The position numbers and the translations under genes are program-made. The notes beneath the pieces are model-generated. The model did not search any database. It saw nothing but the letters and a program-made list of their open reading frames with translations, and was not told where the DNA came from. From Melioribacter sp. (GTDB lineage Bacteria > Bacteroidota > Ignavibacteria > Ignavibacteriales > Melioribacteraceae): a stretch of DNA of 33,187 nucleotides. Of the stretch, positions 3,982 to 31,137 are shown in pieces (the first letter of the stretch is position 1; every line of letters begins with the position of its first letter). The stretch lies in contig PMDS01000031.1 in the NCBI GenBank assembly GCA_003155655.1, positions 42,975-76,161 on the forward strand. Reading direction: 5' to 3'.

Positions 3982-4251
3982 TTACAAATTAAACATAGCC
4001 CCTACAGCAATCTGAAAACCTGTTGGCTTTATAGATTGATCATTTCCGTAATTTTGTTTTCCTTTATCATTAGGCATATTAGTTAATCCAAGAGAATATC
4101 TTACATCTAACGATATACTGACTTCTGGAGAAACCTTATAACTTGTACAGGCGCCAGAAACAACTTTTCCATATCGGGTAGCCAAGACTGGATTATGGAA
4201 AAAAACTAAGTTATAGTTAGTACAAAAAACGGGAGGCGGGTCAATTGCCAT
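3982..4251 (-). pseudogene. C-terminal fragment of an outer-membrane beta-barrel protein
   Basis: The last 45 or so residues of this 89-codon frame look like the closing strands of a Bacteroidota-type outer-membrane barrel: SPEVSISLDVRYSLGL, a short polar loop, then PTGFQIAVGAMFNL ending in a hydrophobic residue. The first 30 residues give no signal peptide and do not look like barrel, and the frame is far too short for a full protein, so this is probably the remnant of a truncated gene. The neighbouring DNA to 4690 is gene-poor and contains another broken frame, which fits decay. Confidence 0.5.
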
Positions 4252-4691
4252 GCAATTATGCTATATCTACAAAATACTGGAATAATGGGTACTGCTTATC
4301 AACCAGTTGATTTAATAAGCATTCAAATTTTTCTTAGTCTATCTCACTGTTTTTCATCTTAGAGACTCCTTTTTGTTTGTTTATTGTTTGGTCATAACAA
4401 TTTTACTAATCTTATAGAGTCTATTCTTTTTCAACTGCTATATTTCAACTAGATTTGAATAAATACCATTGATAGTTATAAAATTATTCTTTATTATATA
4501 TCAAGATAATTTAATATTAATTTTTTTAAACAATACTTGGAAATAATTATATTAGCCAAGTAATCAAAGTATTCCCCCTGGGTTATTAAAGAAATAGTTG
4601 AGAAAAATTTATTATTTACCTGTGCTAAGGGTAGTATTTATTACTTCTTGAAAACAATTATTTCTTGAAATTTATCTTTATAAGGAAAAAC
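4252..4691. other. Gene-poor decayed intergenic region
   Basis: About 440 very AT-rich bases between the leftward barrel remnant and the rightward UppS-like gene. On the minus strand, 4357-4256 has a good ribosome site (AAGGAG) and ATG, but the frame stops after seven codons (MKNSEID) and continues in the same frame as EKFECLLNQLVDK... for 25 residues to a second stop, as if one sense codon had become TAA. The promoter of the 4692-9747 operon should lie in the right half; I cannot place it. Confidence 0.4.
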
Positions 4692-5279
4692 ATGATTTTA
4701 CAAATTCCTAATCATATTGCAATTATTATGGATGGGAATGGAAGATGGGCAAAGAATAAGGTTATCTCAAGAAGTTATGGCCACTTACAAGGAGTTGAAA
4801 CAGTAGAACGAATAATTAAAACATGTATGCGCTTGAAAGTTAAATGTCTAATATTATTTGCATTCTCCAAAAAAAATTGGAAGAAGCTGCTGGAAAAGAT
4901 TGATTCTCTTATTGATTTAACCAGATCTATTTCTAGATTTACATTAGTAACAGCCTTTAATTATTTCGGTAGATGGAATATTATAGAATCTTTTAGAATA
5001 GGAATAAATGGTATTTTTCAAAATAAAGTGAAAATAGATGAGGCGGATGAAAAAAAAATCACAACATATCTTTCAACGAAACGCCTTCCTGAACCGGATT
5101 TTATAATAAGACCTGCTGGTGTATTTAGAATAAGTAATTTTTTTCTTTGGCAAGTAGCATATTCTGAATTATTTTTTACAAATAAACCGTGGCCCGCTTT
5201 TAATCCTGAAGATTTTCTTGAAGCCATTAGAGCCTTCAATTATAGAGAACGGCGTTATGGTAATATCTGTGAAATTTAA
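4692..5279 (+). CDS. Shortened UppS-like cis-prenyltransferase paralogue, probably inactive
   Basis: The protein is clearly homologous to undecaprenyl diphosphate synthase: HIAIIMDGNGRWAK near the N terminus (keeping the catalytic Asp), FNYFGRW, SNFFLWQVAYSELFFT and RERRYG. But it is 195 residues against about 245 for the family. Some 40-45 residues are missing between SLIDL and FTLVTAFNY, a part that lines the prenyl tunnel. The FSxENW motif reads FSKKNW and the RTSGE/RTGGE motif reads RPAGV, so the two glutamates needed for binding and metal (E81 and E213 in E. coli) are gone. It is likely an inactive or repurposed paralogue. I prefer ATG 4692, preceded by AGGAA, over an in-frame TTG at 4665. 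It heads the envelope operon, 32 bases before the next gene. Confidence 0.8.
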   Translation: MILQIPNHIAIIMDGNGRWAKNKVISRSYGHLQGVETVERIIKTCMRLKVKCLILFAFSKKNWKKLLEKIDSLIDLTRSISRFTLVTAFNYFGRWNIIESFRIGINGIFQNKVKIDEADEKKITTYLSTKRLPEPDFIIRPAGVFRISNFFLWQVAYSELFFTNKPWPAFNPEDFLEAIRAFNYRERRYGNICEI

Positions 5280-5311
5280 CTATATACTAACTAATTAAAG
5301 AAGGAGGAACT

Positions 5312-5704
5312 ATGAAGTTCAAAAACATTAAGACTATTTCAATAACATTGTTTGTTATTTTCTTTGCTTTAGCTGTAAATTCTTTTGCTCAAACCCAAGA
5401 TGATATTACTAAAGGCAAAATGGATGGAGAACAAGATGCCAAGGAGGATGTTAGTAGCATTCTCTGGATTGGGGTTGGGTGTTGCACCGGTGGTTTTTCT
5501 TGGTTATATCCTGAAATTTTTGATCTATCTGTTCCTCAAACAAAAATAGTTGGTAAAAGTGCTGATTATATGCAAGCATATATAGCATCATATAGAGCTG
5601 AGAAGAAATCTAAGATCCAAACAAATTCCTGTATAGGAGGAGGAATTTATTGGGGCGTCTCTGTGGTCTATGTTGTTCTAGTTGCTGCGTCAGTTAATAA
5701 ATAG
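5312..5704 (+). CDS. Glycine-rich secreted/membrane hypothetical protein
   Basis: A 130-residue protein with a signal peptide ending at SFA-QTQ, preceded by a strong AAGGAGG ribosome site. The mature part starts with an acidic, Asp/Lys-rich stretch (KGKMDGEQDAKED), then a hydrophobic Gly/Cys segment (WIGVGCCTGGFSW), a polar middle with SADYMQAYIASYRAEKKSK, and a final hydrophobic segment with GGG and valines. Small proteins of this layout (Asp-rich head, glycine-rich membrane hairpin, 'Y..aY...Y..k.k' linker) occur in many Bacteroidota envelopes without a known function. It probably sits in the periplasm or a membrane. Its good ribosome site, just after the degenerate UppS gene, suggests higher expression than its neighbours. 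Confidence 0.6.
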   Translation: MKFKNIKTISITLFVIFFALAVNSFAQTQDDITKGKMDGEQDAKEDVSSILWIGVGCCTGGFSWLYPEIFDLSVPQTKIVGKSADYMQAYIASYRAEKKSKIQTNSCIGGGIYWGVSVVYVVLVAASVNK

Positions 5705-5718
5705 TCTCTTTTTAAGAA

Positions 5719-6411
5719 ATGAGTAAAGTTTTAATATTTTTACTTGCCTTATCAATAGAGATTTTCTCACAGAATATTGAGACATGTCAGGTTAAGTTCC
5801 GGAGAGTTGTAAATTATCACTCATCTCATGATACAACTTCCGGAACAATATATTTTAAGAATAGTAATTTTACGATTATTGATATAAAACTACCGATAAA
5901 TCAGATTTTGTTTTTTGGCAAAAATGATCTTCAAATTTATTATCCAATTGAAAACAAATTATTTAATATCAAAAGCAAAAATCCATTTAGCTTGCCCTTT
6001 TTTCTTTCCTTTCTTTCTGTTATTAAGGAAGATAATGGTTTAGTTGAACCAGGGTTTCAAATTTATAATTCACAAAAGGTTGATGATACTCTATTTGTTT
6101 TTTGGAAACCACCTAAAAATCTGAACAATATATTATCTAAACAAGTAATGAAATTTTGCAACGACAAATTAGTATTCTCTGGATCTTATGACTTAAATGA
6201 TAAATTAATTGTTTATGTCATTTATAGCGATCATGTAAAATATATAAATACATCTTTCCCTTTAAAGATTAGAATAGTCCAGAATAGCTCCAAGAACCAA
6301 TCTATTGAAGAGATAGAATATTTTCAACCAATGTTTAATGAAAAACTTCCCGAAAATATTTTATATTTTCATCTACCTCCAACGGTTGAAAGGAAAGATA
6401 TAACTTGGTAA
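5719..6411 (+). CDS. LolA-like outer-membrane lipoprotein carrier domain protein
   Basis: A 230-residue secreted protein with a signal peptide ending near IFS-QNIE. The pattern of the mature part fits the LolA/LolB half-barrel fold: a strand pair GTIYFKNSNFTIIDIKLPINQILFFGKNDLQIYYPIENKLF (positions 5839-5961) in which a 'P-x-x-Q-x-x...dLxIYyP' motif is followed by amphipathic helices (FLSFLSVI) that could form the lid. LolA-fold proteins carry lipids or lipoproteins across the periplasm. No lipobox cysteine is seen. It lies between a glycine-rich membrane protein and a YidD-domain protein in one operon, so a role in moving or assembling envelope parts is inferred. Assignment is by pattern only. 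Confidence 0.55.
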   Translation: MSKVLIFLLALSIEIFSQNIETCQVKFRRVVNYHSSHDTTSGTIYFKNSNFTIIDIKLPINQILFFGKNDLQIYYPIENKLFNIKSKNPFSLPFFLSFLSVIKEDNGLVEPGFQIYNSQKVDDTLFVFWKPPKNLNNILSKQVMKFCNDKLVFSGSYDLNDKLIVYVIYSDHVKYINTSFPLKIRIVQNSSKNQSIEEIEYFQPMFNEKLPENILYFHLPPTVERKDITW

Positions 6412-6421
6412 TTGGATCAAT

Positions 6422-6847
6422 ATGAAATTCCAAATAATTTTTATAACTCTTTTCTCATGTGGATTATTATTTGCTCAAATTAATTTAAATGATTTGAACT
6501 CCTCAATAATTTCAACAGTTTTAATAAAGGAAATAACGGGAGATATAAATGCGGATATTATTACTAACACAAAGTCAATTGATAATTTTAATGAATTAAG
6601 TTTTTCTTATTCTTTTGTTATCAAATCATATCAACGGTATATTTCTTCTCAAGATAGGGACCAATGTATGTTTCAACCTAGTTGTTCGGTCTTTTCAGAA
6701 CAAGCAGTAAGGAGCGAGGGGCTGGTTAAAGGAATATTATTAACAGCCGATAGATTGACAAGGTGCAACGGGATTGGTTCAATGTATTATGAAAACACTA
6801 ATCCAGAAACGCATAAAATTATTGATCCAGTGGAAAATTATAAGTGA
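6422..6847 (+). CDS. yidD: YidD-domain protein with an N-terminal signal peptide
   Basis: Residues 61-118 match YidD, the membrane-protein insertion efficiency factor that works beside the YidC insertase: IKSYQRYIS, CMFQPSCSVFSEQAV, GLVKGILLTADRLTRC. The three conserved cysteines are at 82, 88 and 115. Ordinary YidD proteins are 70-100 residues, start with the amphipathic helix and sit next to rnpA and yidC. This one is 141 residues and carries a signal peptide (residues 1-18, MKFQIIFITLFSCGLLFAQ) plus a 40-residue linker, so the domain should end up in the periplasm. It overlaps the next gene by four bases (GTGA), which implies coupled translation. Confidence 0.85.
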   Translation: MKFQIIFITLFSCGLLFAQINLNDLNSSIISTVLIKEITGDINADIITNTKSIDNFNELSFSYSFVIKSYQRYISSQDRDQCMFQPSCSVFSEQAVRSEGLVKGILLTADRLTRCNGIGSMYYENTNPETHKIIDPVENYK

Positions 6848-7731
6848 AATATTTCTTTAACCTTTTTTGTTTGTTTGTTTTTCTTGCCTCAAATGTGTCT
6901 GGTCAGGTTGAAAAGATCTTGGAAAGTCATTCTGCTAATATATTTTTGGAAGGGTTTGCAAAAGAATTATACTCGCAAAAAGATTATGAAAGAGCATATA
7001 ATGAATTTGACCGATTTGTATTTCTCAATAAAGGAAAATTAAATTTAGACTCAACCTTTATGTATCTTGCCAAATGTTCCATTGGATTAAAAAGATATGA
7101 TAATGCAAATAAAATTTTGAAAAACCTTTTGGATTCTCCTTATGACAAACATAATGCTGAATTAAGAAATTCGGCTGTTTATTTCTATTCATATTCACTT
7201 TTTCTTCAAGAAAAAAATGAAATGAGCCTGAAAATTTTAAATACTGAATCTCCTCAGGATACTTCTTTTATTAAATCATCCCTAATTGCACTTAACTATC
7301 TCCAACTTAGAAATTATAAATTATCTAAAGAAGCTATCCTTAATAAAAATCCAAATAATTCTGAAATTTTATTTCTCATTGACAATGGCGAAAAGATATC
7401 TTATAAATCCCCATTCTTGGCGGGTTTATTTTCTGCAATAATTCCCGGAACTGGTAAAATATATACCGAGCGCACTTTTGATGGATTGTTTTCTTTAATC
7501 AGTATTGGAATATTAACTTGGAGAGCTTATTTGGGATTTCACGAAGACCAGTATAATTCTACAAGTTTTTGGTTTTATGGTTCGCTTTCAGCCTTGTTAT
7601 ACGCCGGTAATGTTTATGGCTCGGTAAAAAGTGCTGAGTTATATAATGAACAATTAAATGTAAATTATAATTTTAAAATTAGATGTCAGCTTGATAAGAT
7701 TTTTAAAATATTTGATTGTGATCCTAATTAG
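6844..7731 (+). CDS. TPR protein with C-terminal membrane module, paralogue 1
   Basis: A 295-residue protein starting at a GTG that overlaps the yidD stop. Residues 1-20 are a signal peptide (ending VSG-QVEK). Residues 35-175 are helical repeats of TPR type (AKELYSQKDYERAYNEFDRF, YLAKCSIGLKRYDNANKIL). From 189 comes a hydrophobic module: SPFLAGLFSAIIPGTGKIY, GLFSLISIGILTW and FYGSLSALLYAGNVYGS, probably two or three membrane segments with a conserved PG-x-G turn. The next gene has the same layout, so the two are paralogues that may form a heteromer. Function unknown; TPR domains usually hold partners, here perhaps the YidD or LolA-like proteins. The 3' end overlaps the next gene by 41 bases. 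Confidence 0.7.
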   Translation: MKYFFNLFCLFVFLASNVSGQVEKILESHSANIFLEGFAKELYSQKDYERAYNEFDRFVFLNKGKLNLDSTFMYLAKCSIGLKRYDNANKILKNLLDSPYDKHNAELRNSAVYFYSYSLFLQEKNEMSLKILNTESPQDTSFIKSSLIALNYLQLRNYKLSKEAILNKNPNNSEILFLIDNGEKISYKSPFLAGLFSAIIPGTGKIYTERTFDGLFSLISIGILTWRAYLGFHEDQYNSTSFWFYGSLSALLYAGNVYGSVKSAELYNEQLNVNYNFKIRCQLDKIFKIFDCDPN

Positions 7732-8533
7732 TATAAGTTCAATGTGCGTTGCACAACAAAAAGCAGCTAATCTTGCCGATCATTTTTTCTCTGAAGGTAA
7801 TTATAGAGAAGCAATAACTGAATATAAAAGAAATCTTTTTTATATCGATAAATCTGAAGAGAAATGGCTGACCATGTGTAAAATAGCAAGCTCATATTTA
7901 TTTTTAGAAGATAAAACAAACACCATCATTTACATTAATAAAGCAAAGGATTTCTCGACGAATGATAGTCTGAGTGATGAAATCAAATTATTCCAGGCTA
8001 ATTCTTATTTGTTTTTCAAAGACTACCAGCTCGCAAATTTGCTCTTATATCGGCTTGTTAATTTTTCAAAATATTCTGTGATAATTAATAAAGCGAAAAA
8101 AATAATAATTCTAAAATTTATTTTGGCTCATGAATGGGATGAGTTGAATGATTTTTTAGAAAAAAATAAAATCGCTTCTTCTGTTGATGATGTAAAAAAA
8201 ATAATAGCAGATGAAAAGGAAAAAACGTTAATACCTTCTTGGGCAGGTACGTTATCTACTTTTTTCCCCGGCCTTGGACAATTTTATGCCGGTGATGTAG
8301 AAAATGGACTGAATGCTGTTTTGCTTAATGGCTTTTTGCTTTATAGTGTTCTTAATTCATTTATTATAAAGGATCTCGTAGACTGCATAACTTGGAGTAT
8401 GTTATTATACAGATATTATGTCGGTAATATTGAAAAGGCAGAAAAAATAGTTGAAAAGGAAAATTTACAACTTGATTATCAAACAAAAAAAAGAACTTTG
8501 CAATTTTTTAGACAATATTTTATGGATAATTAA
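7691..8533 (+). CDS. TPR protein with C-terminal membrane module, paralogue 2
   Basis: A 280-residue protein with the same plan as its upstream neighbour: a signal peptide (residues 1-21, ending CVA-QQ), helical repeats (ADHFFSEGNYREAITEYKRNL and following) and, from 181, the membrane module IPSWAGTLSTFFPGLGQFY...GLNAVLLNGFLLYSVLNSF, matching the PG-x-G turn of paralogue 1. The TTG at 7691 gives a full signal peptide and overlaps the preceding gene by 41 bases; a TTG at 7712 would give a shorter one. No ribosome site is obvious, so translation probably depends on the upstream gene. Its stop overlaps the next start (TAATG). Confidence 0.7.
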   Translation: MIRFLKYLIVILISISSMCVAQQKAANLADHFFSEGNYREAITEYKRNLFYIDKSEEKWLTMCKIASSYLFLEDKTNTIIYINKAKDFSTNDSLSDEIKLFQANSYLFFKDYQLANLLLYRLVNFSKYSVIINKAKKIIILKFILAHEWDELNDFLEKNKIASSVDDVKKIIADEKEKTLIPSWAGTLSTFFPGLGQFYAGDVENGLNAVLLNGFLLYSVLNSFIIKDLVDCITWSMLLYRYYVGNIEKAEKIVEKENLQLDYQTKKRTLQFFRQYFMDN

Positions 8534-9150
8534 TGATTTTACTAAGTTTATCTAAGCCATTTTTCTTGTTAAATATATTTATCTTTTCCTTAAATGGAGG
8601 ATTAAATTGGATTGATTATTATCCAATTGGTAACCATTCTTATTGGAATTATTCTATTACAGAAAACAATGAAAATTATAAGCAAAGTGTTGTAATGACT
8701 TATTTGGAGTCAGGTGAACAAAATGATTTCATGATTGAAACCAGCGGGAAGAGAAAATCAAAATTTTATTTTACTCATGACAAGGAAAAAGTATATTTAA
8801 ATAACGTTGAATTAAACTGGGGAATAATTCCTTTTCCAATTAAATTAAAATGCTCAACTTCTGTACCTGTCTTTGTTTTTGATGGCTATAAAAATGAAGA
8901 ATGGGCCTGGAAAGGCACATTTCAATTTCTATTTATAACAAAGGAGGTTGAGATTAACTATCAAATACTTGGTTTTGAATTAATCAATTCATCATTGGGC
9001 TCAATAGAATGCCTTAAAATAAAAACAATTTACAAAGAGTCAGATACAAATCGAGAATTAATATCTTGGTTCGCAAAAGGAATAGGTTTGTTAAAGGAAA
9101 AATCAGATCAATATGAAAAACAATTGATTGATTTCAAAATATACAAATAA
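8533..9150 (+). CDS. Secreted hypothetical protein of the 'YYPIG-x-YW' type
   Basis: A 205-residue protein starting within the stop of the previous gene (TAATG). The first 22 residues are hydrophobic and may act as a signal peptide or anchor. The mature start reads WIDYYPIGNHSYWNYSI, the opening seen in many secreted Bacteroidota/Ignavibacteria proteins (usually 'YYPLAVGNYWEY'), and the end reads SWFAKGIGLLKE, the matching closing motif. These are beta-rich extracytoplasmic domains without a known function. In between lie alternating strands (KFYFTHDKEKVYLNNVELNW, LKIKTIYKESD). The operon context suggests an envelope role. I cannot name a substrate or partner. Confidence 0.6.
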   Translation: MILLSLSKPFFLLNIFIFSLNGGLNWIDYYPIGNHSYWNYSITENNENYKQSVVMTYLESGEQNDFMIETSGKRKSKFYFTHDKEKVYLNNVELNWGIIPFPIKLKCSTSVPVFVFDGYKNEEWAWKGTFQFLFITKEVEINYQILGFELINSSLGSIECLKIKTIYKESDTNRELISWFAKGIGLLKEKSDQYEKQLIDFKIYK

Positions 9151-9159
9151 GGAGCTAAT

Positions 9160-9747
9160 ATGAAAGAGAAACTTTTAGTTTTATTTTTAATCATTCTTTT
9201 ATCTCAAAATGTTTTTGGGCAGGGCTCATCAATTGGCATTACTGTTGGTGTAGGGGCTTCCATCTTAGAGAAAAAAGAATTATACGGAAATATTCAAACT
9301 GATTTTTATCCTGAAATTGGTGGTTTTCTGAATTTTTCAGGCGTCGAATTGGGTATAAACGCAGGTTTAGTTTATAGGAAATTCGATGATTCATACTATA
9401 CTTATACCTATTATTATGGTTACAATTATTACAAGGTAACATATAAAATTATATTTATTCCTATTAATGGTTATGTAAAAATTAGACCGCTAGATTTTGT
9501 AATCCCAGATATTCAAATAGCGCCTTATATTGGAGCTGGGTTAGGCGCTTTTGTTGGCGCGGGTGATGATTTTTCTAAAAAATCTTATCTAAATATTCTC
9601 GGCTTTGCAGGTATTGAATATAAGGTAATACGAAATTTAGATATTTATATTGAAGCAAAGTATTGCTATTCTAAACTAACTAATACTAATTACAATCTTG
9701 GCGGTATTTTTATGACCGCTGGGGGTCAAGTAAAACTTCCTTTTTAA
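9160..9747 (+). CDS. Outer-membrane beta-barrel protein
   Basis: A 195-residue protein with an AAGGAG ribosome site and a clear signal peptide (ending VFG-QGSS). The mature part has eight or so amphipathic strands separated by glycine turns, many rich in tyrosine: SIGITVGVGASI, VELGINAGLVYRKF, IIFIPINGYVKIRP, IAPYIGAGLGAFVGAG, DIYIEAKYCYSKL and a final strand MTAGGQVKLPF ending in phenylalanine, as expected for insertion by the BAM complex. A run YYTYTYYYGYNYYK marks a tyrosine-rich surface loop. It is the last gene of the envelope operon and could be its outer-membrane end point or cargo. A stem-loop follows at 9839. Confidence 0.8.
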   Translation: MKEKLLVLFLIILLSQNVFGQGSSIGITVGVGASILEKKELYGNIQTDFYPEIGGFLNFSGVELGINAGLVYRKFDDSYYTYTYYYGYNYYKVTYKIIFIPINGYVKIRPLDFVIPDIQIAPYIGAGLGAFVGAGDDFSKKSYLNILGFAGIEYKVIRNLDIYIEAKYCYSKLTNTNYNLGGIFMTAGGQVKLPF

Positions 9748-10203
9748 TTACTAAAGATATTGTATTAATAAATTGTATTAGATATTATATAATCTGCCGA
9801 CTCCCATTGTTAGTAAAGCTTAAACTGCAAGATCACGCCCAAGCATTTTGCTTTCGGCAAGATGCTTGGTTTGTAAAATATTTCCATCGGTGTTATATTG
9901 TCAATTAAAGTTTGGATGCCTGTGATTCAAATATCCGTAACTCAAAAGCAATTTTTTCTTTGAAATAAAACTGTAATGCGGAAAAGTATGCTGCAATCAA
10001 GGCATAACATTTCATAATTCATATTTGGGGGAGTATTATTGAGACGATTATTGCTCCCTCCGAAGATTCGACTAGAATACTACCGTTGTGCAAGGTAAAA
10101 ATAGATTTAACAATTGCCAACACAAACCAACCCCGCCTGGTTTTCTTATCCGGGATTTATCTGTATGATAAAAAAGATCAAATATTTCTTTTTGTAAATA
10201 AAT
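9748..10203. other. Convergent intergenic region, 456 bp
   Basis: This lies between the end of the rightward envelope operon and the end of the leftward pgi gene. It holds the 13-bp stem-loop at 9839-9869 (listed separately). An open frame of about 70 codons runs from 10008 into pgi on the plus strand but has no ATG, GTG or TTG start and resembles nothing I know, so I do not call it. No RNA gene is seen. Confidence 0.5.
9839..9869 (+). terminator. Stem-loop, probable terminator of the envelope operon
   Basis: CCAAGCATTTTGC (9839-9851) pairs with GCAAGATGCTTGG (9857-9869), 13 pairs including one U-G, around a five-base loop. It is followed only by TTTGT, a weak U-tract. It starts 92 bases after the last operon gene. 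It could instead protect the 3' end of the mRNA. Confidence 0.55.
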
Positions 10204-14973: not shown

Positions 14974-15405
14974 TTACTTTTTCTCTGCTGCTTTTACGGC
15001 TTCTTTTTTTTCTTCTTTCTTTATAGCTTCTTTTTTCATTTCTTTCTTAACTTCTTTCTTTACAGCCTCTTTCTTCATTTCCTTCCTAACTTCTTTTTTT
15101 ACAGCTTCTTTCTTCATTTCTTTTTTTATAGCCTCTTTCTTCATTTCCTCCCTAACTTCTTTTTTTACAGCTTCTTTCTTCATTTCTTTTTTTATAGCCT
15201 CTTTCTTCATTTCCTTCTTAACTTCTTTTTTTTCAACTTTCTTTTCCGCTGCCTTAATAGCCTCTTTCTTTTCTTCTTTCTTTTCCGCTGCTTTAACAGC
15301 TTCTGTTTTTGCTTTTTCATCAACTTTCTTTTGCGGCTGAACTTGTGCAAATACGTTTACTGTAACAAAAGAAAGAATTATTACTACCGCTAATAACCTT
15401 TTCAT
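14974..15405 (-). CDS. Secreted Lys/Glu/Ala-rich repeat protein, predicted single alpha-helix
   Basis: A 143-residue protein. Residues 1-20 are a signal peptide (MKRLLAVVIIL... ending VFA-QVQ) behind a GGAG ribosome site. Everything after residue 25 is charged repeats of KKEMKKEA[IV]KKEM and EKKEAVKAAEKK type, with no aromatic residue, proline or glycine. Lys and Glu alternate at i/i+4 spacing, which favours a stable lone helix more than a coiled coil. The coding DNA holds tandem 66-bp units. It may be a periplasmic spacer, a cell-wall or nucleic-acid binder, or a charge buffer. A terminator follows. The mature protein is strongly basic. Alternative starts are not needed. Confidence 0.75.
   Translation of the reverse strand: MKRLLAVVIILSFVTVNVFAQVQPQKKVDEKAKTEAVKAAEKKEEKKEAIKAAEKKVEKKEVKKEMKKEAIKKEMKKEAVKKEVREEMKKEAIKKEMKKEAVKKEVRKEMKKEAVKKEVKKEMKKEAIKKEEKKEAVKAAEKK
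15088..15219 (-). repeat. Tandem 66-bp coding repeat
   Basis: Two adjacent 66-bp units, 15088-15153 and 15154-15219, are nearly identical and each encodes 22 residues; a partial copy lies at 15045-15087 and diverged ones elsewhere in the gene. The length is a multiple of three, so copy number can change without breaking the reading frame. Confidence 0.85.
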
Positions 15406-20164: not shown

Positions 20165-21187
20165 TTATTGATCCTGAGGGACAGCATTTGATATTAAAGG
20201 ACAATTGCAAAATTCTAATTGCATTGAATCTCGTTTGATTTTTCCATTTCCATTCAAGACAAAATCAAAATGTTTTAGAACTTTTTTCTTATCTATAAAT
20301 TCGATTTGGGTATGATCAATTGCGCGGTTATTTTTTGGAAGTAAGTAATATTTTGACAAACCTTCCCAGTCAACATCCCTAAGGGAAATAATATCTTTTA
20401 AGAAAAAACTAACACAATATTCTCCAAGTTTTGAATTGGATTGTTCATTTTTAAGTTTTTCGTTAGCAATTGTGACATATTTATTATCCAATTCAAATCC
20501 TATGAATTTTCGGCCAAGTCTTTTTGCTGCAATAGCCGTTGTACCAGTACCCATAAAAGGATCGAGGACAATATCTGATTCATCTGTGCCCATTAAAATT
20601 ATTCTCTCTAAAAGATGAATAGGTAATTGACAAGGATGTTCGTCTCTATATTTATTATGCTTTATTCTGTGAATATCTGTCCATACATCAGAAAGTAAAG
20701 GACCAAAAGGATGCAAACTTTGTTTTTTACCTCCATAATCTTTTAATAAATAGCCGCATTTTCGACATCGTTTGTGGGGATATCTTAACTCAAAAAATTT
20801 TGTCTGTTTAATATCTTTAACATAATAAAGAATACCATAATGAGAAGGCTGCAAAGATTTACCCATAGGGGCAGTTGGGGCATCCCAGGAAATCCAATGT
20901 CTAAAAGTCGCATATTTATTTAGGATGGATGAATAGTAAGTTAACCATTTAGGTATATTATGTATGAAAATAGAGCCTGTAGGTTTTGTTACCCTAACCA
21001 TTTCTTTTATCCATAACTCACACCATATCAAGTATTCCCCAAATTCCAAGGAGTCTTTATAGCCATTGTATTTTTTCTTTAAATTAAATGGAGGATCTGC
21101 AAAAGTAACATCGATTGAATTGTCTGGTATTTCTTTAAATAATTCTAACGAATCTCCATTGATTATTTTATTTATAATTTTCTTCAT
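20165..21187 (-). CDS. Type II DNA methyltransferase, beta class, probably N6-adenine
   Basis: A 340-residue methyltransferase. The catalytic motif IV comes first (DPPFN, residues 31-35) and the SAM-binding motif I is near the middle (DPFMGTGTT, 209-217) after EHPCQLP, the usual motif X region. This IV-TRD-I order defines the beta class, and DPPF/DPPY is the mark of amino-adenine enzymes. The target-recognition part between them holds RCRKCGY (140-146), half of a possible zinc knuckle. It is the last gene of the leftward restriction-modification unit, two bases after the nuclease gene. The terminal 110 residues are unusual for the family and may help recognise DNA. Confidence 0.88.
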   Translation of the reverse strand: MKKIINKIINGDSLELFKEIPDNSIDVTFADPPFNLKKKYNGYKDSLEFGEYLIWCELWIKEMVRVTKPTGSIFIHNIPKWLTYYSSILNKYATFRHWISWDAPTAPMGKSLQPSHYGILYYVKDIKQTKFFELRYPHKRCRKCGYLLKDYGGKKQSLHPFGPLLSDVWTDIHRIKHNKYRDEHPCQLPIHLLERIILMGTDESDIVLDPFMGTGTTAIAAKRLGRKFIGFELDNKYVTIANEKLKNEQSNSKLGEYCVSFFLKDIISLRDVDWEGLSKYYLLPKNNRAIDHTQIEFIDKKKVLKHFDFVLNGNGKIKRDSMQLEFCNCPLISNAVPQDQ

Positions 21188-21189
21188 AA

Positions 21190-22167
21190 TTATTTTAGTG
21201 TGTTCTTTAATAATTCTTTAAATCTGACTAATTCATCTTCGTGAAAAGTAAAAACGTCTTCATAAGCCGAAACCATTCTTTTCAAATCGCCTTTTCTTAC
21301 GTACCACCCAATACCGTCTACAAAACCAATGAATTTTGCTTTTGGATAATGTTGCTTGATTAGTACATCTATTGATATTTCAGTTTTTGATTTATCACCC
21401 TGACCGGATGATGTAGTGACCAAATAAGAACTTTCAATGATAATAAAAGGATTTTTCTTATTAGGAATTATAAAATCCATTGTCCTTTTGGAGGCAGGCG
21501 CATTTGTAATTAATTCGGAAAGATCACCTGTTTCAAAAGTTACTTTTAGTTCCTCTAAAATATTTTCAATTACTGTTTCAGGATTATTTTCCTTTTGACC
21601 TGAATAAGAACCTTTTTCTTTGTATCTGATTAACGTATCGATTAAATCGGGAATTTGATATTGTAATTTTGAAATACTTAACTTTTTTAGCTCAAACAAG
21701 GGTAAAGTTTTAGCGAGGAATGGTATTGTTGCACCTTCAAAAAAAAGATTTACAATTCCTTGTCTGAAGGATTCATTGGTTTTTATCATTGCAAGAATTT
21801 TCGAATCTGACCATTCAACTATTCCATCTTCAGATATTTTTTCACTCTTGAACCATTTTTCCTTTATAAGAATTTTATTAAGTTCAGCATCATCAACGAC
21901 TCTAATTAAAGTAGTAATTCTCTTTAAATTCTCATTTGAAAAGCCAGTTAAAGCTAGTAAAGCACGCAATCCATTTTCTTTCTCAAATATTAATTTTTCA
22001 AATAATTCTTTTTTTAATCCATTAAGTTCAATATCGTTCTTTAAATTTAACAGTAGCTCTTTAATTGAATTTACATAGCCCTCATAACTTTCTTCAAATT
22101 TCTTATTATAAAAATAGAATGTGTTTTTATCGATAACTTTTTTAAATTTTTCATCAGTTGATTTCAT
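21190..22167 (-). CDS. Type II restriction endonuclease, PD-(D/E)XK-like
   Basis: A 325-residue protein between two DNA methyltransferase genes. The likely active site is D231 in KRTMDFIIP and E245 in FIIIESSY; a lysine of the usual ExK triad is missing, and SGQGDKSKTEI just after may supply it, as in DpnII/MboI-like enzymes where the lysine comes from a nearby G-S-K loop. The end reads GFVDGIGWYVRKGDLKRM, typical of these nucleases. The first 180 residues are helical and may bind the target. I start at ATG 22167 with AAGGGG nine bases away and a 10-base gap after the upstream stop; an in-frame ATG at 22212 would overlap that gene. The recognition site cannot be read from the sequence. Confidence 0.75.
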   Translation of the reverse strand: MKSTDEKFKKVIDKNTFYFYNKKFEESYEGYVNSIKELLLNLKNDIELNGLKKELFEKLIFEKENGLRALLALTGFSNENLKRITTLIRVVDDAELNKILIKEKWFKSEKISEDGIVEWSDSKILAMIKTNESFRQGIVNLFFEGATIPFLAKTLPLFELKKLSISKLQYQIPDLIDTLIRYKEKGSYSGQKENNPETVIENILEELKVTFETGDLSELITNAPASKRTMDFIIPNKKNPFIIIESSYLVTTSSGQGDKSKTEISIDVLIKQHYPKAKFIGFVDGIGWYVRKGDLKRMVSAYEDVFTFHEDELVRFKELLKNTLK

Positions 22168-22177
22168 TAAAAACCCC

Positions 22178-23422
22178 TTAAACCATTTTATTAAAAAAGA
22201 GAACATATTCATCTTTCATTACATTTCGTAGACCTTTTATAGGCTTAATAATACTTTTAACCAGTTTTAAATTAGCTTTCTCACAAAAATATATTATTTT
22301 ATCTTCCAGGCGAATACCACCAGTCTGATTTGTATTTGAGCCAATAATTATTACAGCATATTTATTTGGCTTGAGAACTCTTGCGATTTCAGTACAAACG
22401 GTTTTCATATCTTCAAAATAATTATTAAGCCTTTCTATTTTATTCTTTCCTCTTAGACCAATCATTTTTTCTTTTAGTTTTTCTGTGTCTAATCCTAAGT
22501 ATTCAAGTTGATCTTTATCGTTGCTTGCATAATCAATTGCAAACGAATAAGGAGGTGAAGTTATTATTCCATCAAAGCAATTATCCTCATAATGTAAGCT
22601 AATCGCTGTTGATTCTTTAGAAACAATTACTTCCCCTATATTTTTTTTATCATAAAAAGGATTTTCTAAATAATTCAAAACAGTGTAAATATAACGTTCT
22701 AGAACTTTATTAAACAACTCTTTATGAGAGGAACTTTTAGTTCTGTTGAAGTAACCCATTGAATCAAGGAAAGCAAGCAAAGTAAGATAATAATTTGGCT
22801 CATTTTCAAACAACTGGCTATTCTTTTTAGAATCATACTTTTTCTTAGTCGAAAAGAAGCTGAATAACTTATCTTTTTTAGTTATTAGTTTTTGTAGTTC
22901 CTCATTTTTTGATTTAAGGGATTCATATTTAGTTTTGGTCATTAGCCTACAAAATGGACTAATGTCAACTGCAACAGAATTGATCCCAAGTAGGGAAGCT
23001 TCGATATTGGTTGTTCCACTTCCACACATTGGGTCGAGAACTAAATTACCATTTTTTATACCGATAATGTTTAAAATACTTTTTATTAATTGCGGGTGAA
23101 ATTTACCGCGATAAGGAAAAAGTGAATGCGTTGCATAACCAGTTGAAAATAGTCCATTTTCAAAATAATTCTTTGTTCTGGTGGATCTAGATAATATTTC
23201 AAACGATTGTTTAAAAGTATTTGCTTTGAAATGAGATGTTAATTTTGAGTTAACTGACTTAATATATGCTGTTTTTTTTAACAACTCCTCTTTTTGTAAA
23301 GAATGGTATTCTAAAAATGCAAGCTCTAATTCAAATAATTCGGTGACCGATGGCAATAATTGGATTTCCTCACCGAATAATTTTTTTATAAAATTATTTG
23401 AAAATATATTTATTTCATTCAT
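22178..23422 (-). CDS. Type II DNA methyltransferase, probably N4-cytosine
   Basis: A 414-residue methyltransferase with motif I first (LDPMCGSGTTN, 129-139) and motif IV second (TSPPY, 288-292). The SPPY tetrapeptide is the mark of amino-cytosine (N4) enzymes, in contrast with the DPPF of the partner. About 150 residues separate the motifs, with a lysine-rich stretch (170-200) that could be the target-recognition domain. Before motif I, FPYRGKFHPQLIK is the substrate-side motif found in this subgroup. It is the first gene of the leftward unit, so the DNA is protected before the nuclease is made. A 7-bp inverted repeat lies about 45 bases upstream of its start. Confidence 0.85.
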   Translation of the reverse strand: MNEINIFSNNFIKKLFGEEIQLLPSVTELFELELAFLEYHSLQKEELLKKTAYIKSVNSKLTSHFKANTFKQSFEILSRSTRTKNYFENGLFSTGYATHSLFPYRGKFHPQLIKSILNIIGIKNGNLVLDPMCGSGTTNIEASLLGINSVAVDISPFCRLMTKTKYESLKSKNEELQKLITKKDKLFSFFSTKKKYDSKKNSQLFENEPNYYLTLLAFLDSMGYFNRTKSSSHKELFNKVLERYIYTVLNYLENPFYDKKNIGEVIVSKESTAISLHYEDNCFDGIITSPPYSFAIDYASNDKDQLEYLGLDTEKLKEKMIGLRGKNKIERLNNYFEDMKTVCTEIARVLKPNKYAVIIIGSNTNQTGGIRLEDKIIYFCEKANLKLVKSIIKPIKGLRNVMKDEYVLFFNKMV

Positions 23423-26081: not shown

Positions 26082-26628
26082 TACCAAATTTGCTTGATTT
26101 ATTTTGATTAGGGTACTTTTAAATGCACTTTAAATAGAATCGTTACGCAATTATTGTAACCTAGACGAAAATAATGCGCATGTAAAAAAATTAATGTGCC
26201 ATCGGGGCTTGTATTCTAATCTTTACATGGGGTACAATAATTGCATACTATATTAGTATTTTCTAAGTATAGTCTAGTTTAATATGGGATTTGACTTACA
26301 TATCATAGACCTACTCTATAACAAAAGAATGCGAAACTAAATTTGAAGCAAAATAAATTAAGGCGAATTTGTGAAGCCAGGGGATACAGAATTTTTAATA
26401 AGAAATTTATCACCGGCTGATATTTTTTTAGCTGCACTTTTTTTTCTCATCATTATAACTAATCAGAAGAATTTTTGTATTTACCCAAATTTATCAAAGC
26501 AAATCCATCTTACAGCCCCTTTTTGCCCTTGCTAATCATACTCTTTTAGGCAGAATTTTGAAAGATGTAAAAATTCTAAAACATAATTGGTATAAAAAAA
26601 ATTTTTGTGTCACTGTGGAGGAAATAAT
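26082..26628. other. Intergenic region before the von Willebrand cluster, 547 bp
   Basis: AT-rich, with no known gene. It holds a possible small ORF at 26371-26535 (listed separately) and must contain the promoter of the three-gene cluster. A weak 6-bp stem AGTACC/GGTACT at 26080-26117 is followed by TTT and could end the PEGA transcript, but its loop is long. Confidence 0.45.
26371..26535 (+). CDS. Possible small membrane protein
   Basis: A GTG-started frame of 54 codons with AAGGCG upstream at a good distance. It opens with MKPGDTEFLIRNLSPAD and has one hydrophobic run, IFLAALFFLIIIT, that would suit a single membrane span, then a polar tail with three cysteines. I do not recognise it. The region is AT-rich, where such frames arise by chance. 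Confidence 0.3.
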   Translation: MKPGDTEFLIRNLSPADIFLAALFFLIIITNQKNFCIYPNLSKQIHLTAPFCPC

Positions 26629-28725
26629 ATGAAACGATTATCACTAAATTTAATTCTTGCCTGTACGGTTATTCTGATTTTATTCCCTTACAATGAAATA
26701 AGAGCTGTAGGGGCGCTTTATGTTAGGCCTAGATTCAGCACCCAGCAATATCAAAAAATGGCAATTAAAAATATCGACGTCAATGTTTCAATGCAGGATC
26801 AGGTTTCGCTTACTTCTGTTGATCAGACATTTTATAATGAAATGAATACATCTGTAGAAGCGATATATATTTTTCCGCTTCCTGAAAACGCGATGATTAC
26901 ACGTCTTGTTTACTGGTTTAACGGAAAACAATATGAGGCTACAATTAGAGAGAGACAGGAAGCTGTTGCCGATTATAACACAAAAGTAAGACAGTGGATG
27001 GATCCGGCTTTACTTGAATATCTGGGAAACAATTTATTTAAATTAAGCATCGTTCCCGTAAATGCTCTTAGTGAGGTAAGAGCTTCAATTACATATGTCG
27101 AAATGTTAAACTATGATTTCGGTAAGGTGAATTATAAATTCCTTTTGAACACAACACAGCTTTCTTCAAAACCTATTGAAACAGTCCATCTTATTGTTGA
27201 TGCAAAATCCCAAAATATTTTTAAATACTTTAAATCGCCGTCACATGGTAATATGATCGATACAAAGATTAATATGTTATCAAATAAGCATTATACTTTG
27301 GAATTTGGTGATGAGAATTTTACGCCCGATAAAGATTTGGAAATCCAGTTTGAAACTGTGCGTAATGAAATCCAATTTACTCTTCTGACTTATGCTCCAA
27401 CAGTTCAAGATTCAATGGGAACAAGTTTGTTCTATACGCTTTGGGCCACGCCGCCGGATTCAATTGCTAACGATAAAATAATTCCAAAAGACATTGTATT
27501 TACAGCAGATGTTTCGTCAAGCATGGAAGGGGAACGGCTTCAACAAGTTAAATCTGCATTGAACAATTTTCTGGCATTGTTAAATCCAAACGATAGGTTT
27601 AACATTTTAACATTTGGAACGTTTATTAATAAATTTAAACCGGATTTGGTGCCAGCAACCCTGAATAATATTAATGATGCAAAAAATTATGTATACCAAT
27701 TGTACGCTCTTGGTCTCACAAATATCGATCAAGCATTAGTCGAAACTCTAAAACTAAGCTATAATACCGCATCGTCTTGTAATGTAGTTTTTCTAACAGA
27801 TGGACAACCAACCTGGGGAGAAACCCGAAGCGATTCAATTATAAGTCACGTCAGTTTACTTAATAAGAATAGTATCCGGATTTTTTCATTTGGTGTTGGC
27901 GAGGATGTGAGTAAAAGTTTATTAACAAATTTATCTGCACAGAATCACGGTTACGCACAGTTCATAAAATCAGACGACAGTATTTCTACAATAGTTAATA
28001 ATCAATTTACTAGAATTTCGAAACCGGTAATGAAGGATATTGCGATTAGTATTAACGGTCTAAGAACTTGGGATCAGTATCCTAAAACACTCAGTGATTT
28101 ATTTTGGGGAAGCCAGATTGTTCAATATGGGTTATATGATAATAAAGGCACATTCGATGTGAAATTAGCCGGAACTATTTTAAATCAAGCGGTAGAATAT
28201 CATCAGAATATAGCATTCACAGATACATCGAGACAATACAGGTTTGTTCCGCGATTGTGGGCAAAAAGTAAAATTGATTATCTCTTAGATTTAATCCAGG
28301 TATATGGTGAATTACCCGAATTGGTAAAACAGGTAACTGACTTGAGTCTTCAGTTTCAAATCTTAACCCCCTATTCGGCTTTTTATGTCGACCCAACAAA
28401 ACCAACCGGGGTTGAAAAACTGGGAAATAGTATTCCGAAAAATTTTTCTTTGATGCAGAATTATCCAAATCCTTTTAATCCCGAAACCACTATCGAATAT
28501 AACCTTCCGGCTCAAGCAAGAGCTTATAATGTTGTTATAAGAATTTACAATTTCTTGGGACAGTTGGTTAGAGAACTGGTAAATCAAGAGCAGTCTGCTG
28601 GCCGCTATAGTATAGTTTGGAATGGAAAGGACAACTCCGGTCATGGTCTTGCAAGCGGAGTATATATATATACAATTCAAGCGGGTGAATTTAGACAAGC
28701 GAAAAAAATGGTATTGATGAAATAA
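26629..28725 (+). CDS. VIT and von Willebrand A domain protein with type IX sorting tail
   Basis: A 698-residue secreted protein behind a strong GGAGG site at 26629 (an in-frame start at 26605 adds eight residues and is unlikely). After a signal peptide come a VIT domain (about 45-190; FYNEMNTSVEAIYIFPLPENA is its core), a von Willebrand A domain (about 287-480) and a C-terminal type A sorting domain (from about 610; NYPNPFNPETTIEYNLP, then SGVYIYTIQAGEFRQAKKM). The metal site is intact: D294-x-S296-x-S298, T364 and D391 (LTDGQP). VIT-VWA proteins resemble inter-alpha-trypsin inhibitor heavy chains and often bind matrix proteins. The tail would send it through the type IX system to the surface. 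Confidence 0.9.
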   Translation: MKRLSLNLILACTVILILFPYNEIRAVGALYVRPRFSTQQYQKMAIKNIDVNVSMQDQVSLTSVDQTFYNEMNTSVEAIYIFPLPENAMITRLVYWFNGKQYEATIRERQEAVADYNTKVRQWMDPALLEYLGNNLFKLSIVPVNALSEVRASITYVEMLNYDFGKVNYKFLLNTTQLSSKPIETVHLIVDAKSQNIFKYFKSPSHGNMIDTKINMLSNKHYTLEFGDENFTPDKDLEIQFETVRNEIQFTLLTYAPTVQDSMGTSLFYTLWATPPDSIANDKIIPKDIVFTADVSSSMEGERLQQVKSALNNFLALLNPNDRFNILTFGTFINKFKPDLVPATLNNINDAKNYVYQLYALGLTNIDQALVETLKLSYNTASSCNVVFLTDGQPTWGETRSDSIISHVSLLNKNSIRIFSFGVGEDVSKSLLTNLSAQNHGYAQFIKSDDSISTIVNNQFTRISKPVMKDIAISINGLRTWDQYPKTLSDLFWGSQIVQYGLYDNKGTFDVKLAGTILNQAVEYHQNIAFTDTSRQYRFVPRLWAKSKIDYLLDLIQVYGELPELVKQVTDLSLQFQILTPYSAFYVDPTKPTGVEKLGNSIPKNFSLMQNYPNPFNPETTIEYNLPAQARAYNVVIRIYNFLGQLVRELVNQEQSAGRYSIVWNGKDNSGHGLASGVYIYTIQAGEFRQAKKMVLMK
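28408..28725 (+). repeat. Sorting-tail cassette, copy 1
   Basis: The 318 bases encoding the C-terminal sorting domain recur without any length change at 32851-33168 and contain long identical runs, the longest 42 bases at 28672-28713. The rest of the two genes is much less alike. Confidence 0.85.
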
Positions 28726-28781
28726 TTTTAAATAAATTGATGGACTTTTAATAGATTACTTCTTATCTAAAAGTATGGGTA

Positions 28782-31124
28782 ATGAACATGAAAAAAATAT
28801 TTTTTGTTATGCTTGTTCTGTATTCTGGAATATTCGCGCAGAATAAGAAGTTATACGATGTTGATGGAGCTGAGAAGGGAAATAATTTTTTAAAATTTGA
28901 AAATATTTTAGATGCAACCGACCAAATAAGCAACTCAAAATTGGCTTCTACTATTTTATCCGGCGGATATTTCACAATTGGAACTACCGGTGGTGTATCA
29001 GCAAATAGTTTGGATGATAATTGTACTATTACCTATGGCCATCCATATGCAAAAACTTCCTACCCGGTTATTTCAATCGATGGAAAGTGGTATAAACTCG
29101 ACGACTTTTTCAAACCTTCTGAAATGAATATTGCAATAAGTTTCGACACTCTCAAACTTACAGCCATTCAGTCTGGCTACATCTCTTATGTATTTAAGAT
29201 TTGTATTAAAAATGACGGCCAGGGAATTATTTTTCAACAAAGCGTTAAAAATTTAGATTCTACTCCGCACACGCTTGCCTGCGGATTTGTTTTTGATCCG
29301 GCACTTGCTAAAAATGGTGATGGATATTTAGAACTGCCGGATGGATTTCTTGGCGGAAACAGAATATTTGAACCGGGAACGATTCCAAACAATTTAATCT
29401 TGTGGGAACGGGCTATAGGTGCAAAAGGTATTGGAATTCAAATTGATTATCCGGGCGAGCAACCGGAAAAAATAATTGCAGCTAATTGGGATGAAATATA
29501 TAAAAATGCAGGACCCCAGACTCCCATTTTAAACAGAACTTTGTATGATCTTGTGATTGAACTTTTTGGGAAAGCGAAAAATCTAAATGCAAACCAAAGT
29601 ATTTCTGATGAACTTGATGTTAGTCTGCTGCAGCCGGATTTTTCTTCTTCACTTTTTTTGAGATGGGATTTGCAAAATTATCTTACTGTACAAAGCGGTC
29701 AGCTATTTCCGCAAAACTTTAATACGTTTTTAGAAATTAACAAAAACGGCGGTTCATCGAATTCAAATGTCAGTGTCGATTTAACATTACCTTCATTTCT
29801 GACTTCTTCACAAACAAGCGGTTCGTTTAATTTAACCGGAGAGCAAAGTTTAGACAAAATTGATCTGACTGCGCACATAAGATATGAAGAAAAGATAGAA
29901 GAGGTTACCGCAAAAGTAAAAAGCGGCAATAGCATTCTTGACGAGATTCATAGAATGATTTACATGCCTGCAATTCCAGTCTCAGATACAGGATTAGTTG
30001 TAAAGATCGATACACTTGTTGTTTCTAAGTTTCCTAATCTGGATATAAAATTTGAAGCACAAAGAAAAGCCAATGGATCAAAAATAGTTGATCTCACTCC
30101 TGAAAATATTTTTCTATATGAAGAATCTTCCCGGATTGAAAATTTTACAATGAAAAAAGATACTTCGGGAGGGGTAAATTTTGCAGATATAATTTTTGTG
30201 CTGGATGTAACCGGAAGTATGGGCGGAACAATTGATCAGGTAAAGAAAAATATTACAGTCTTTGCCGATAGCCTGTCGCTAAGAGGTATAGATTTTAGAC
30301 TTGGAATGGTTACGTTTTTAGACATAGTTGAAAATAAATATCCATTTACAAAAGATGTTGCTTTATTCAAATCCCAGGTGGATCTTCAATATGCTCATGG
30401 AGGCGGTGATGAGCCTGAAAATTCTTTGCAAGCTCTGCTTGATGCTTCTAATTATCCATTCCGTCTTAATTGCAACCGGGTAATAATTTGGATTACTGAT
30501 GCCACTTATCATGAGAAAGATAGCTTTACATCACTTCAAAAAAGCGATGTAATAAGTGCTCTGCTCACAAATAGTATAATAGTAAATTCGATCGGGCCCA
30601 CATTTAATAAATCTAGTTGGTACGACCCGATAATCGGTCCTACAGGTGGCAAATTCTATGACATATCAGGTAACTTCAAAGATATTTTAACGGATATTTC
30701 GAAATTCAAAGTTGCTAGCAAATATATTCTAAGTTTTATTTCCGGAAAAACCAGCTTACCCGGCAAGATAACAATTCAAATAAAATATTCCGGTCTGGGC
30801 GGTGAAGCCACAATAAATAATTCTAAAACTAATTCTTTACAATTAGCAAAAATATTGTCGTTCTATCCTAATCCGTTTAATCCGCAGATTACTTTTAAGG
30901 TTAATAAAGCCGGAATTACAAATGGAAGCATCTTTATTTACAATTCAATTGGGCAATTAGTAAAATCATTCCAAATAGGAAAAGATTTTCAGAGTATTAA
31001 CTGGAATGGGAGAAATGAAAAAGGAGAGTTAATAGCTTCCGGCTTTTATATTGTTCAACTAAAACTTTCTGACGAAGCTACTCAGGGCTACAATGAATTC
31101 GCAAAAATTCTATTTTTGAAGTGA
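28782..31124 (+). CDS. Secreted von Willebrand A protein with type IX sorting tail
   Basis: A 780-residue protein with a signal peptide (ending IFA-QNKK). Residues 30-380 form a large beta-rich region I do not recognise; it differs from the VIT domain of the neighbours. A von Willebrand A domain begins near 466 with a complete metal motif D475-V-T-G-S479 (FVLDVTGSM), followed by GGGDEPENSLQALLDA and a VIIWITDATY strand; this D-x-T-G-S form is like that of integrin and chloride-channel-type A domains. The C terminus (about 695-780) is a diverged type A sorting domain (FYPNPFNPQITF...GFYIVQLKL...). It lies 56 bases after the VIT-VWA gene and 13 before the next. Probably a surface adhesion or scaffold protein. 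Confidence 0.85.
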   Translation: MNMKKIFFVMLVLYSGIFAQNKKLYDVDGAEKGNNFLKFENILDATDQISNSKLASTILSGGYFTIGTTGGVSANSLDDNCTITYGHPYAKTSYPVISIDGKWYKLDDFFKPSEMNIAISFDTLKLTAIQSGYISYVFKICIKNDGQGIIFQQSVKNLDSTPHTLACGFVFDPALAKNGDGYLELPDGFLGGNRIFEPGTIPNNLILWERAIGAKGIGIQIDYPGEQPEKIIAANWDEIYKNAGPQTPILNRTLYDLVIELFGKAKNLNANQSISDELDVSLLQPDFSSSLFLRWDLQNYLTVQSGQLFPQNFNTFLEINKNGGSSNSNVSVDLTLPSFLTSSQTSGSFNLTGEQSLDKIDLTAHIRYEEKIEEVTAKVKSGNSILDEIHRMIYMPAIPVSDTGLVVKIDTLVVSKFPNLDIKFEAQRKANGSKIVDLTPENIFLYEESSRIENFTMKKDTSGGVNFADIIFVLDVTGSMGGTIDQVKKNITVFADSLSLRGIDFRLGMVTFLDIVENKYPFTKDVALFKSQVDLQYAHGGGDEPENSLQALLDASNYPFRLNCNRVIIWITDATYHEKDSFTSLQKSDVISALLTNSIIVNSIGPTFNKSSWYDPIIGPTGGKFYDISGNFKDILTDISKFKVASKYILSFISGKTSLPGKITIQIKYSGLGGEATINNSKTNSLQLAKILSFYPNPFNPQITFKVNKAGITNGSIFIYNSIGQLVKSFQIGKDFQSINWNGRNEKGELIASGFYIVQLKLSDEATQGYNEFAKILFLK

Positions 31125-31137
31125 GCGGGAAACTGAC

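Follow-up and report, generated by a model that had tools for sequence, protein, structure and literature searches.

A shortened, catalytically altered UppS paralogue at the head of a gene run in a Melioribacter sp. genome

The uppS2 locus and its distribution

The window analysed here, a stretch of 33,187 nucleotides from one contig of a Melioribacter sp. assembly (phylum Bacteroidota, class Ignavibacteria, family Melioribacteraceae), carries near its left end an open reading frame that we refer to as uppS2. The frame begins with an ATG codon behind an AAGGA-like ribosome site, runs for 195 codons to a TAA stop, and contains neither a frameshift nor a premature stop codon, remaining open across the junction of an internal deletion; the observation of the earlier note that the frame is still open was therefore borne out. 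The GC content at the three codon positions (0.37/0.35/0.20) retains its contrast. Both the PF01255 profile (E 6.9e-53) and the TIGR00055 profile (190.5 bits, against a cut-off of 109.55) match uppS2, in each case split over two stretches and, as for a competent UppS, above the curated cut-off. The genes and remnants at the locus are as follows.

3985 to 4155, minus strand: remnant of a native outer-membrane-protein-like gene (its last 56 residues) at the left edge of the insert, from comparison with sister genomes, its nature judged by eye
4692 to 5279, plus strand: uppS2, a shortened, catalytically altered UppS paralogue of 195 amino acids, from profile matches and alignment
5312 to 5704, plus strand: ORF5312, which opens a five-gene cluster that is also present in other members of the class
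5719 to 6411, plus strand: ORF5719, a cluster gene, LolA-like by eye only
6422 to 6847, plus strand: a second YidD homologue
6844 to 7731, plus strand: a TPR-like protein, cluster gene
7691 to 8533, plus strand: a paralogous TPR-like protein, cluster gene, start codon uncertain
8533 to 9150, plus strand: ORF8533, in the same run
9160 to 9747, plus strand: ORF9160, the last gene of the run, scoring 20.7 bits against Surface_Ag_2, just under the cut-off of 22
10022 to 10191, minus strand: the end of a native histidine-kinase-like gene, left as a remnant in two frames at the right edge of the insert, from comparison with sister genomes, its nature judged by eye

At the corresponding locus, the sister genomes G001, G005 and G007 have an RlpA-like gene followed by response-regulator-like and histidine-kinase-like genes, and G007 additionally has an outer-membrane-protein-like gene (all assigned by eye). 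Since remnants of native genes flank uppS2 and the seven genes behind it, the region from approximately 4156 to 10021 (about 5.9 kb) is an insert or a replacement. The genes to the right of it (pgi and an amino-acid permease gene) are likewise without counterparts in the stretches that were compared. No repeats framing the insert were found among those listed (the best 20 of 44 direct families and 25 of 108 inverted pairs), which are short and imperfect except for a low-complexity array at 14.9 to 15.3 kb, and there is no tRNA gene within the window. Contamination of the contig was considered and ruled out by its synteny with the sister genomes.

uppS2 is the first of eight genes separated successively by gaps of 32, 14 and 10 nt, three overlaps and a gap of 9 nt, and this tight spacing suggests that they form one operon. 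The GC content at third codon positions is 0.204 in uppS2, 0.209 to 0.260 in the other seven genes and 0.260 to 0.357 in six flanking genes; the lower values within the insert are suggestive only. ORF5719 had no Pfam or NCBIfam match at an E value of 0.001.

The cluster formed by ORF5312, ORF5719, the YidD homologue and the two TPR-like proteins was also encountered in five further class genomes. It is whole in three of these (G203, G320 and G137); in G388 the contig ends before the second TPR gene, and in G131 no YidD was called. ORF5719 has relatives in 7 of 391 class genomes (a count that includes the genome under study and one partial relative) and in 4 of 395 genomes of the phylum (including the genome under study and two of the five with the cluster). 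The genes behind uppS2 are homologous, at 25 to 41% identity, to the standard yidD-TPR-TPR cluster of the class, copies of which in the same genome and in G001 were compared; the version in the insert differs in that ORF5312 and ORF5719 stand in front, with uppS2 before them. None of 12 loci with the five-gene or the standard cluster showed a UppS motif, some of the contigs ending nearby, and to the extent that the class has been sampled, only this genome's own copy of the five-gene cluster has gained uppS2. Within the class the five-gene cluster (5312 to 8533) is rare and scattered, and the standard cluster sits elsewhere in the genome.

Further features of the window lie at a distance from the insert. 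A low-complexity protein rich in Lys, Ala and Glu, made up of short direct repeats, is encoded on the minus strand at 14974 to 15405. The region from 20165 to 23422 is a likely restriction-modification locus, in which a DpnII-like nuclease gene lies between two DNA methylase genes, and three adjacent large proteins encoded at 26605 to 33168 are, by eye, von Willebrand A domain-like with C-terminal sorting tails.

The assembly comprises 4.62 Mb in 137 contigs, with a completeness of 100 and a contamination of 1.06. It has PF01255 matches at three places, namely, an intact uppS, uppS2 and a third, very divergent copy. The search for a full-length uppS that the earlier note had proposed thus succeeded: the intact gene encodes 273 residues and is followed by bamA-like and skp-like genes (by eye). 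The third copy (6888 to 7541, minus strand, on another contig of the same genome) lies at a contig edge and is interrupted by a run of N; it is without the RxxGE glutamate and the RxG tail, and a Vreelandella plasmid protein is 48.5% identical to it over 86%. No second match of this kind appears in 56 related genomes.

Each of the 11 other genomes of the genus has one UppS, and of 57 relatives, counting the genome under study, 55 carry a single UppS and one lacks it, the present genome alone having more. We found no orthologue of uppS2 in 78 other genomes of the family, the 11 sisters included (matches with E up to 1e-32), or in a sample of 390 other genomes of the class (E up to 1e-30), where the matches other than uppS2 itself are full-length frames of 250 to 305 residues that are matched in their second half. 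A scan of named genomes kept 80 loci of at least 565 confirmed. Viral contigs gave no match to uppS2, and 25 phage and 114 plasmid records gave matches that are all below 60% identity among the best 12 listed for each. The case for uppS2 is thus limited by its occurrence in a single genome, orthologues not having been found.

Residues and structural elements lost and retained

UppS proteins from 148 fetched loci gave 126 distinct sequences, one of which is the window copy, and uppS2 was aligned with the other 125, which measure 235 to 299 residues from stop to stop. The alignment located the following features within the gene.

4872 to 4874, plus strand: codon 61, AAA, which gives Lys where FSxENW has Glu (alignment)
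4919 to 4920, plus strand: junction, between codons 76 and 77, of an in-frame deletion of 42 residues, 126 nt (alignments)
5121 to 5123, plus strand: codon 144, GTA, which gives Val where RxxGE has Glu (alignment)
5253 to 5261, plus strand: codons 188 to 190, R-Y-G, the retained C-terminal RxG motif (alignment; role from PMC7573591)

The central gap confirms the claim of the earlier note that some 40 middle residues had been deleted, with boundaries that the alignment may move by a few residues. Both glutamate replacements named in that note, as well as the retention of the MDGNGRWA aspartate, are also seen in the alignment. The ENW glutamate is present in all 125 references and is Lys in uppS2 (E61K); the acidic position of RxxGE is Glu in 122 and Asp in 3 references and is Val in uppS2 (E144V), which accordingly has neither of these two acidic residues of a competent UppS. 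Six further residues conserved in at least 95% of the references are replaced around the gap (T54I, R65K, P66L, E69K, M74I and N80I). In total, 49 of the 57 columns conserved at this level and shared with uppS2 are retained and eight are changed; of the columns conserved at 98% or more, 37 of 40 are retained, the losses being E61, R65 and E69.

The retained residues include D14, N16 and R18 of MDGNGRWA, R27, H31, R140, R146, S148, E159 and the R188-x-G190 motif, and the second half of the protein (RISNF, YSE and RERRYG) is likewise well conserved. In the human enzyme, an aspartate holds Mg2+, two arginines and a serine hold phosphate at the IPP site, R85 binds the diphosphate of FPP, and the partner subunit contributes its RxG motif to complete the active site (PMC7573591). 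By our own residue mapping, D14, R140, R146 and S148 of uppS2 would correspond to the Mg2+ and IPP-site residues, and the aspartate and the Arg/Arg/Ser set of a competent UppS would thus be in place; the counterpart of human R85, if the mapping is right, is Lys in uppS2 (R65K). With the exception of R65K, uppS2 therefore appears to retain the residues that bind substrate diphosphates.

An AlphaFold model of uppS2, built on a 66-row alignment, has a mean pLDDT of 86.8 and a pTM of 0.83, with the pLDDT falling to 61 at the junction (residues 71 to 80). Since that alignment contains full-length homologues, the confidence is partly borrowed and folding is predicted only. The model has five sheet strands (residues 8-12, 52-57, 84-89, 137-141 and 159-163), in addition to two short C-terminal strands, and six helices at least four residues long; a model of the intact UppS of the same genome has six sheet strands, and the same method counts ten helices in it. 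The NgBR domain is described as having six helices and five strands, and other cis-prenyltransferases seven and six (PMC7573591); since our method counts ten helices where that paper counts seven for such enzymes, helix counts compare poorly.

The segment absent from uppS2 corresponds to residues 78 to 119 of the intact UppS, where that protein has strand 94-99, helix 107-119 and, before them, the latter half of helix 68-91. According to the models, the deletion would take out an edge strand (strand C), helix 4 and half of helix 3, and residues needed for the six-stranded sheet and the full helices 3 and 4 of a competent UppS are missing. In MM_0014 of Methanosarcina mazei, the order of the sheet is 7-6-1-2-5-3 (PMC8131916), which places strand 3 at the edge; it is plausible that loss of its counterpart would leave strands 2 and 5 adjacent via one hybrid helix and that the shortened protein could still fold. 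Fold searches with uppS2 returned UppS and other cis-prenyltransferases, the best match being VIA (Z 23.3, rmsd 2.4 over 192 residues). Other cis-prenyltransferases fill the sequence and fold matches listed for uppS2, and NgBR is absent among them. Identity to the intact UppS is 5/21 in the helix 5 region, 5/14 in the helix 6 region and 11/15 in the linker; the dimer-side helices are thus poorly conserved and the dimer-side linker is retained.

With the loop and tunnel cut and two near-invariant acidic residues gone, normal chain elongation by uppS2 is very unlikely, and the loss of this activity is a well-supported prediction from the sequence.

Pattern of divergence and competing explanations

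The changes in uppS2 are unevenly spread. Six of the eight in columns conserved at 95% or more lie next to the deletion in a stretch of 21 residues (Fisher 1.4e-4), and a scan for clustering gave p values of 0.004 at the 95% threshold, 0.017 at 90% and 0.054 at 98%, figures to be read with the segment having been picked after the data were seen and with the strictest threshold giving the highest value. Residues that are unseen in the family occupy 21 of the 195 positions of uppS2, where the 125 references average 2.3 and reach 12 at most; 8 of 27 lie within residues 54 to 80 and 13 of 168 elsewhere (p 0.003). Neutral runs reached eight unseen residues in this segment with a probability of 0.001, yet outside it the 13 observed stand beside a neutral mean of 12.6.

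In columns conserved at 80 to 95%, uppS2 retains 9 of 24 residues (0.38), where the lowest value among the 125 references is 0.54, and in columns conserved at 50 to 80% it retains 20 of 52. When 1500 neutral decays were simulated from real UppS proteins, values as low as these were reached in 2 and 64 runs, respectively. All 15 changes in the 80 to 95% columns are to residues used by other UppS proteins, and all eight changes in the columns at 95% or more are to residues seen in none of the 125 references. That moderately conserved columns are so poorly retained, and changed only to residues that the family accepts, we read as an indication that most of the divergence arose under selection. 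The terminal branch of uppS2 is very long (2.03 changes per site in one tree and 2.88 in the other, with medians of 0.17 and 0.16), and its phylogenetic neighbours differ between the trees. Grouping of uppS2 with its own genus was not rejected (p-AU 0.361) in the second tree, which comprised 83 of the 126 rows, eight long-branch rows and alternate rows without a kinship label having been dropped.

Our preferred explanation, which we hold tentatively, is that uppS2 is translated into a pseudoenzyme, which either pairs with the normal UppS or competes with it. A role as a partner is favoured by the presence of an intact uppS, by the retained RxG motif and by the five strands of the model, as reported for NgBR, as well as by the clustering of unseen changes at the deletion and the position of uppS2 at the head of a tight gene run on the insert. 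Points that weaken the explanation are the occurrence in one genome, the choice of the clustered segment after inspection of the data, the neutral number of unseen residues outside it, the partly borrowed confidence of the model, the poorly conserved dimer-side helices and the absence of NgBR among the matches listed. The earlier note had left a choice between a recent pseudogene and an NgBR-like partner; the data lean toward a remodelled, constrained protein, and strict likeness to NgBR did not hold, the diphosphate-binding residues being kept.

The second most probable explanation, and one that may well be correct, is that uppS2 is a decaying gene, that is, a uppS that was acquired or arose by duplication, is redundant in the presence of the intact one and has undergone an in-frame deletion and several missense changes. 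As the first gene in a tight run, its frame may stay open only to spare the genes behind it from polar effects. When neutral decay was simulated to an equal loss (8 of 57 conserved columns), the frame stayed open in 12 to 28% of the runs, depending on the mutation model; the open frame therefore says little about function and was rejected, as too weak, as proof of it. The fragments of native genes at the edges of the insert are still recognisable, one of them split over two frames, and the time since insertion may therefore suffice for such damage. Constraint is not visible in orthologues, none having been found in the 78 family and 390 sampled class genomes. Against decay stand damage that is uneven and clustered beside the deletion, moderately conserved columns that are poorly retained with replacements accepted by the family only, deletion ends that fall in helices and remove an edge unit, 195 codons without a frameshift or stop, and a retained contrast in codon-position GC. 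Since the unseen residues outside the clustered segment are close to the neutral number, a spell of decay atop a long constrained history may also apply.

It is improbable that uppS2 is an active enzyme of altered specificity, in which a short or absent tunnel would give a short product or prenyl transfer to another acceptor. Such an enzyme could draw on the retained D14, N16, R18, R140, R146, S148 and E159, and an O-prenylating relative is known (PMC8131916); 3 of the 125 references have Asp instead of the RxxGE glutamate, which is accordingly not strictly fixed. The ENW glutamate, however, is fixed in 125 of 125 references and is Lys in uppS2, the arginine that binds the FPP diphosphate (human R85) is also Lys if the mapping is right, and the 35 solved relatives listed all measure 217 to 340 residues. 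An error of sequencing or assembly, with the deletion or the substitutions not present in the organism, is highly improbable: the assembly is a draft of 137 contigs and only one genome has uppS2, but the frame is open across the junction, and the contig belongs to the genome, as indicated by sister counterparts for nine of the ten ORFs that immediately precede the insert (62 to 86% identity) and for two genes beyond it (67 and 82%).

If uppS2 is a pseudoenzyme acting on or beside the normal UppS, the following course of events can be envisioned. It would have diverged from a full-length UppS mostly under constraint, losing an edge strand/helix unit together with loop residues of the chain-elongating site and keeping the diphosphate cradle, the dimer-side linker and the C-terminal RxG tail, and it would have entered the genome with or beside the five-gene cluster. 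The protein may pair with the chromosomal UppS and lend its RxG tail, as NgBR does; alternatively, it could replace one half of the active UppS dimer and thereby lower output, or it could hold prenyl diphosphates without elongating them. The anatomy of uppS2, the presence of an intact uppS in the genome, the insert with its edges and the uneven spread of the changes are observed; we infer expression and folding of the protein, as we do its action through pairing with UppS or through the holding of prenyl diphosphates.

Comparison with known systems

With bacterial UppS (TIGR00055/PF01255), uppS2 shares profile matches above the cut-offs, the MDGNGRWA motif, the RISNF region and the RxG tail; it differs in being 42 residues shorter in the middle of the protein and in the replacement of the ENW and RxxGE glutamates and of six more conserved residues. 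Among the open-licence papers listed, judged by titles and the openings of abstracts, none describes a non-catalytic UppS paralogue from bacteria.

The NgBR/Nus1 subunits of eukaryotes resemble uppS2 in several respects: the model has five sheet strands rather than six, the RxG tail is as in NgBR, and an active homologue is present in the same cell. The motif is found as R188-Y-G190, with a putative reach into the active site of a partner; RxG is also described from homodimeric enzymes and as absent from yeast Nus1 (PMC7573591, PMC8131916). In contrast to NgBR, which is described as having no substrate-binding site (PMC7573591), uppS2 retains diphosphate-binding residues, and it has no N-terminal transmembrane domain of the NgBR type, its ATG codon lying 13 residues ahead of the MDGN aspartate. 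Membership of uppS2 in the NgBR/Nus1 family was therefore rejected, since it keeps the substrate cradle and is without the membrane domain, and any resemblance to the mode of action of NgBR would be, at most, one in outline.

That uppS2 is an independent bacterial counterpart of NgBR/Nus1, which has shed an edge unit and its residues for elongation, retains a trans-acting RxG tail, travels with a gene cluster and modulates the UppS of its host through heterodimers, is a bolder proposal that we consider unlikely. If true, the use of pseudo-subunits, known from eukaryotes and one archaeon, would be extended to a mobile bacterial paralogue that does not elongate chains and that might naturally regulate the carrier lipid needed for cell-wall synthesis; if uppS2 is merely a dying gene, it is ordinary. 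The archaeal case is that of MM_0618/MM_1083 of Methanosarcina mazei, a heteromeric cis-prenyltransferase (as cited in PMC8131916) which, although archaeal and likened to uppS2 by description rather than by sequence, provides a prokaryotic precedent for cis-prenyltransferases of two subunits.
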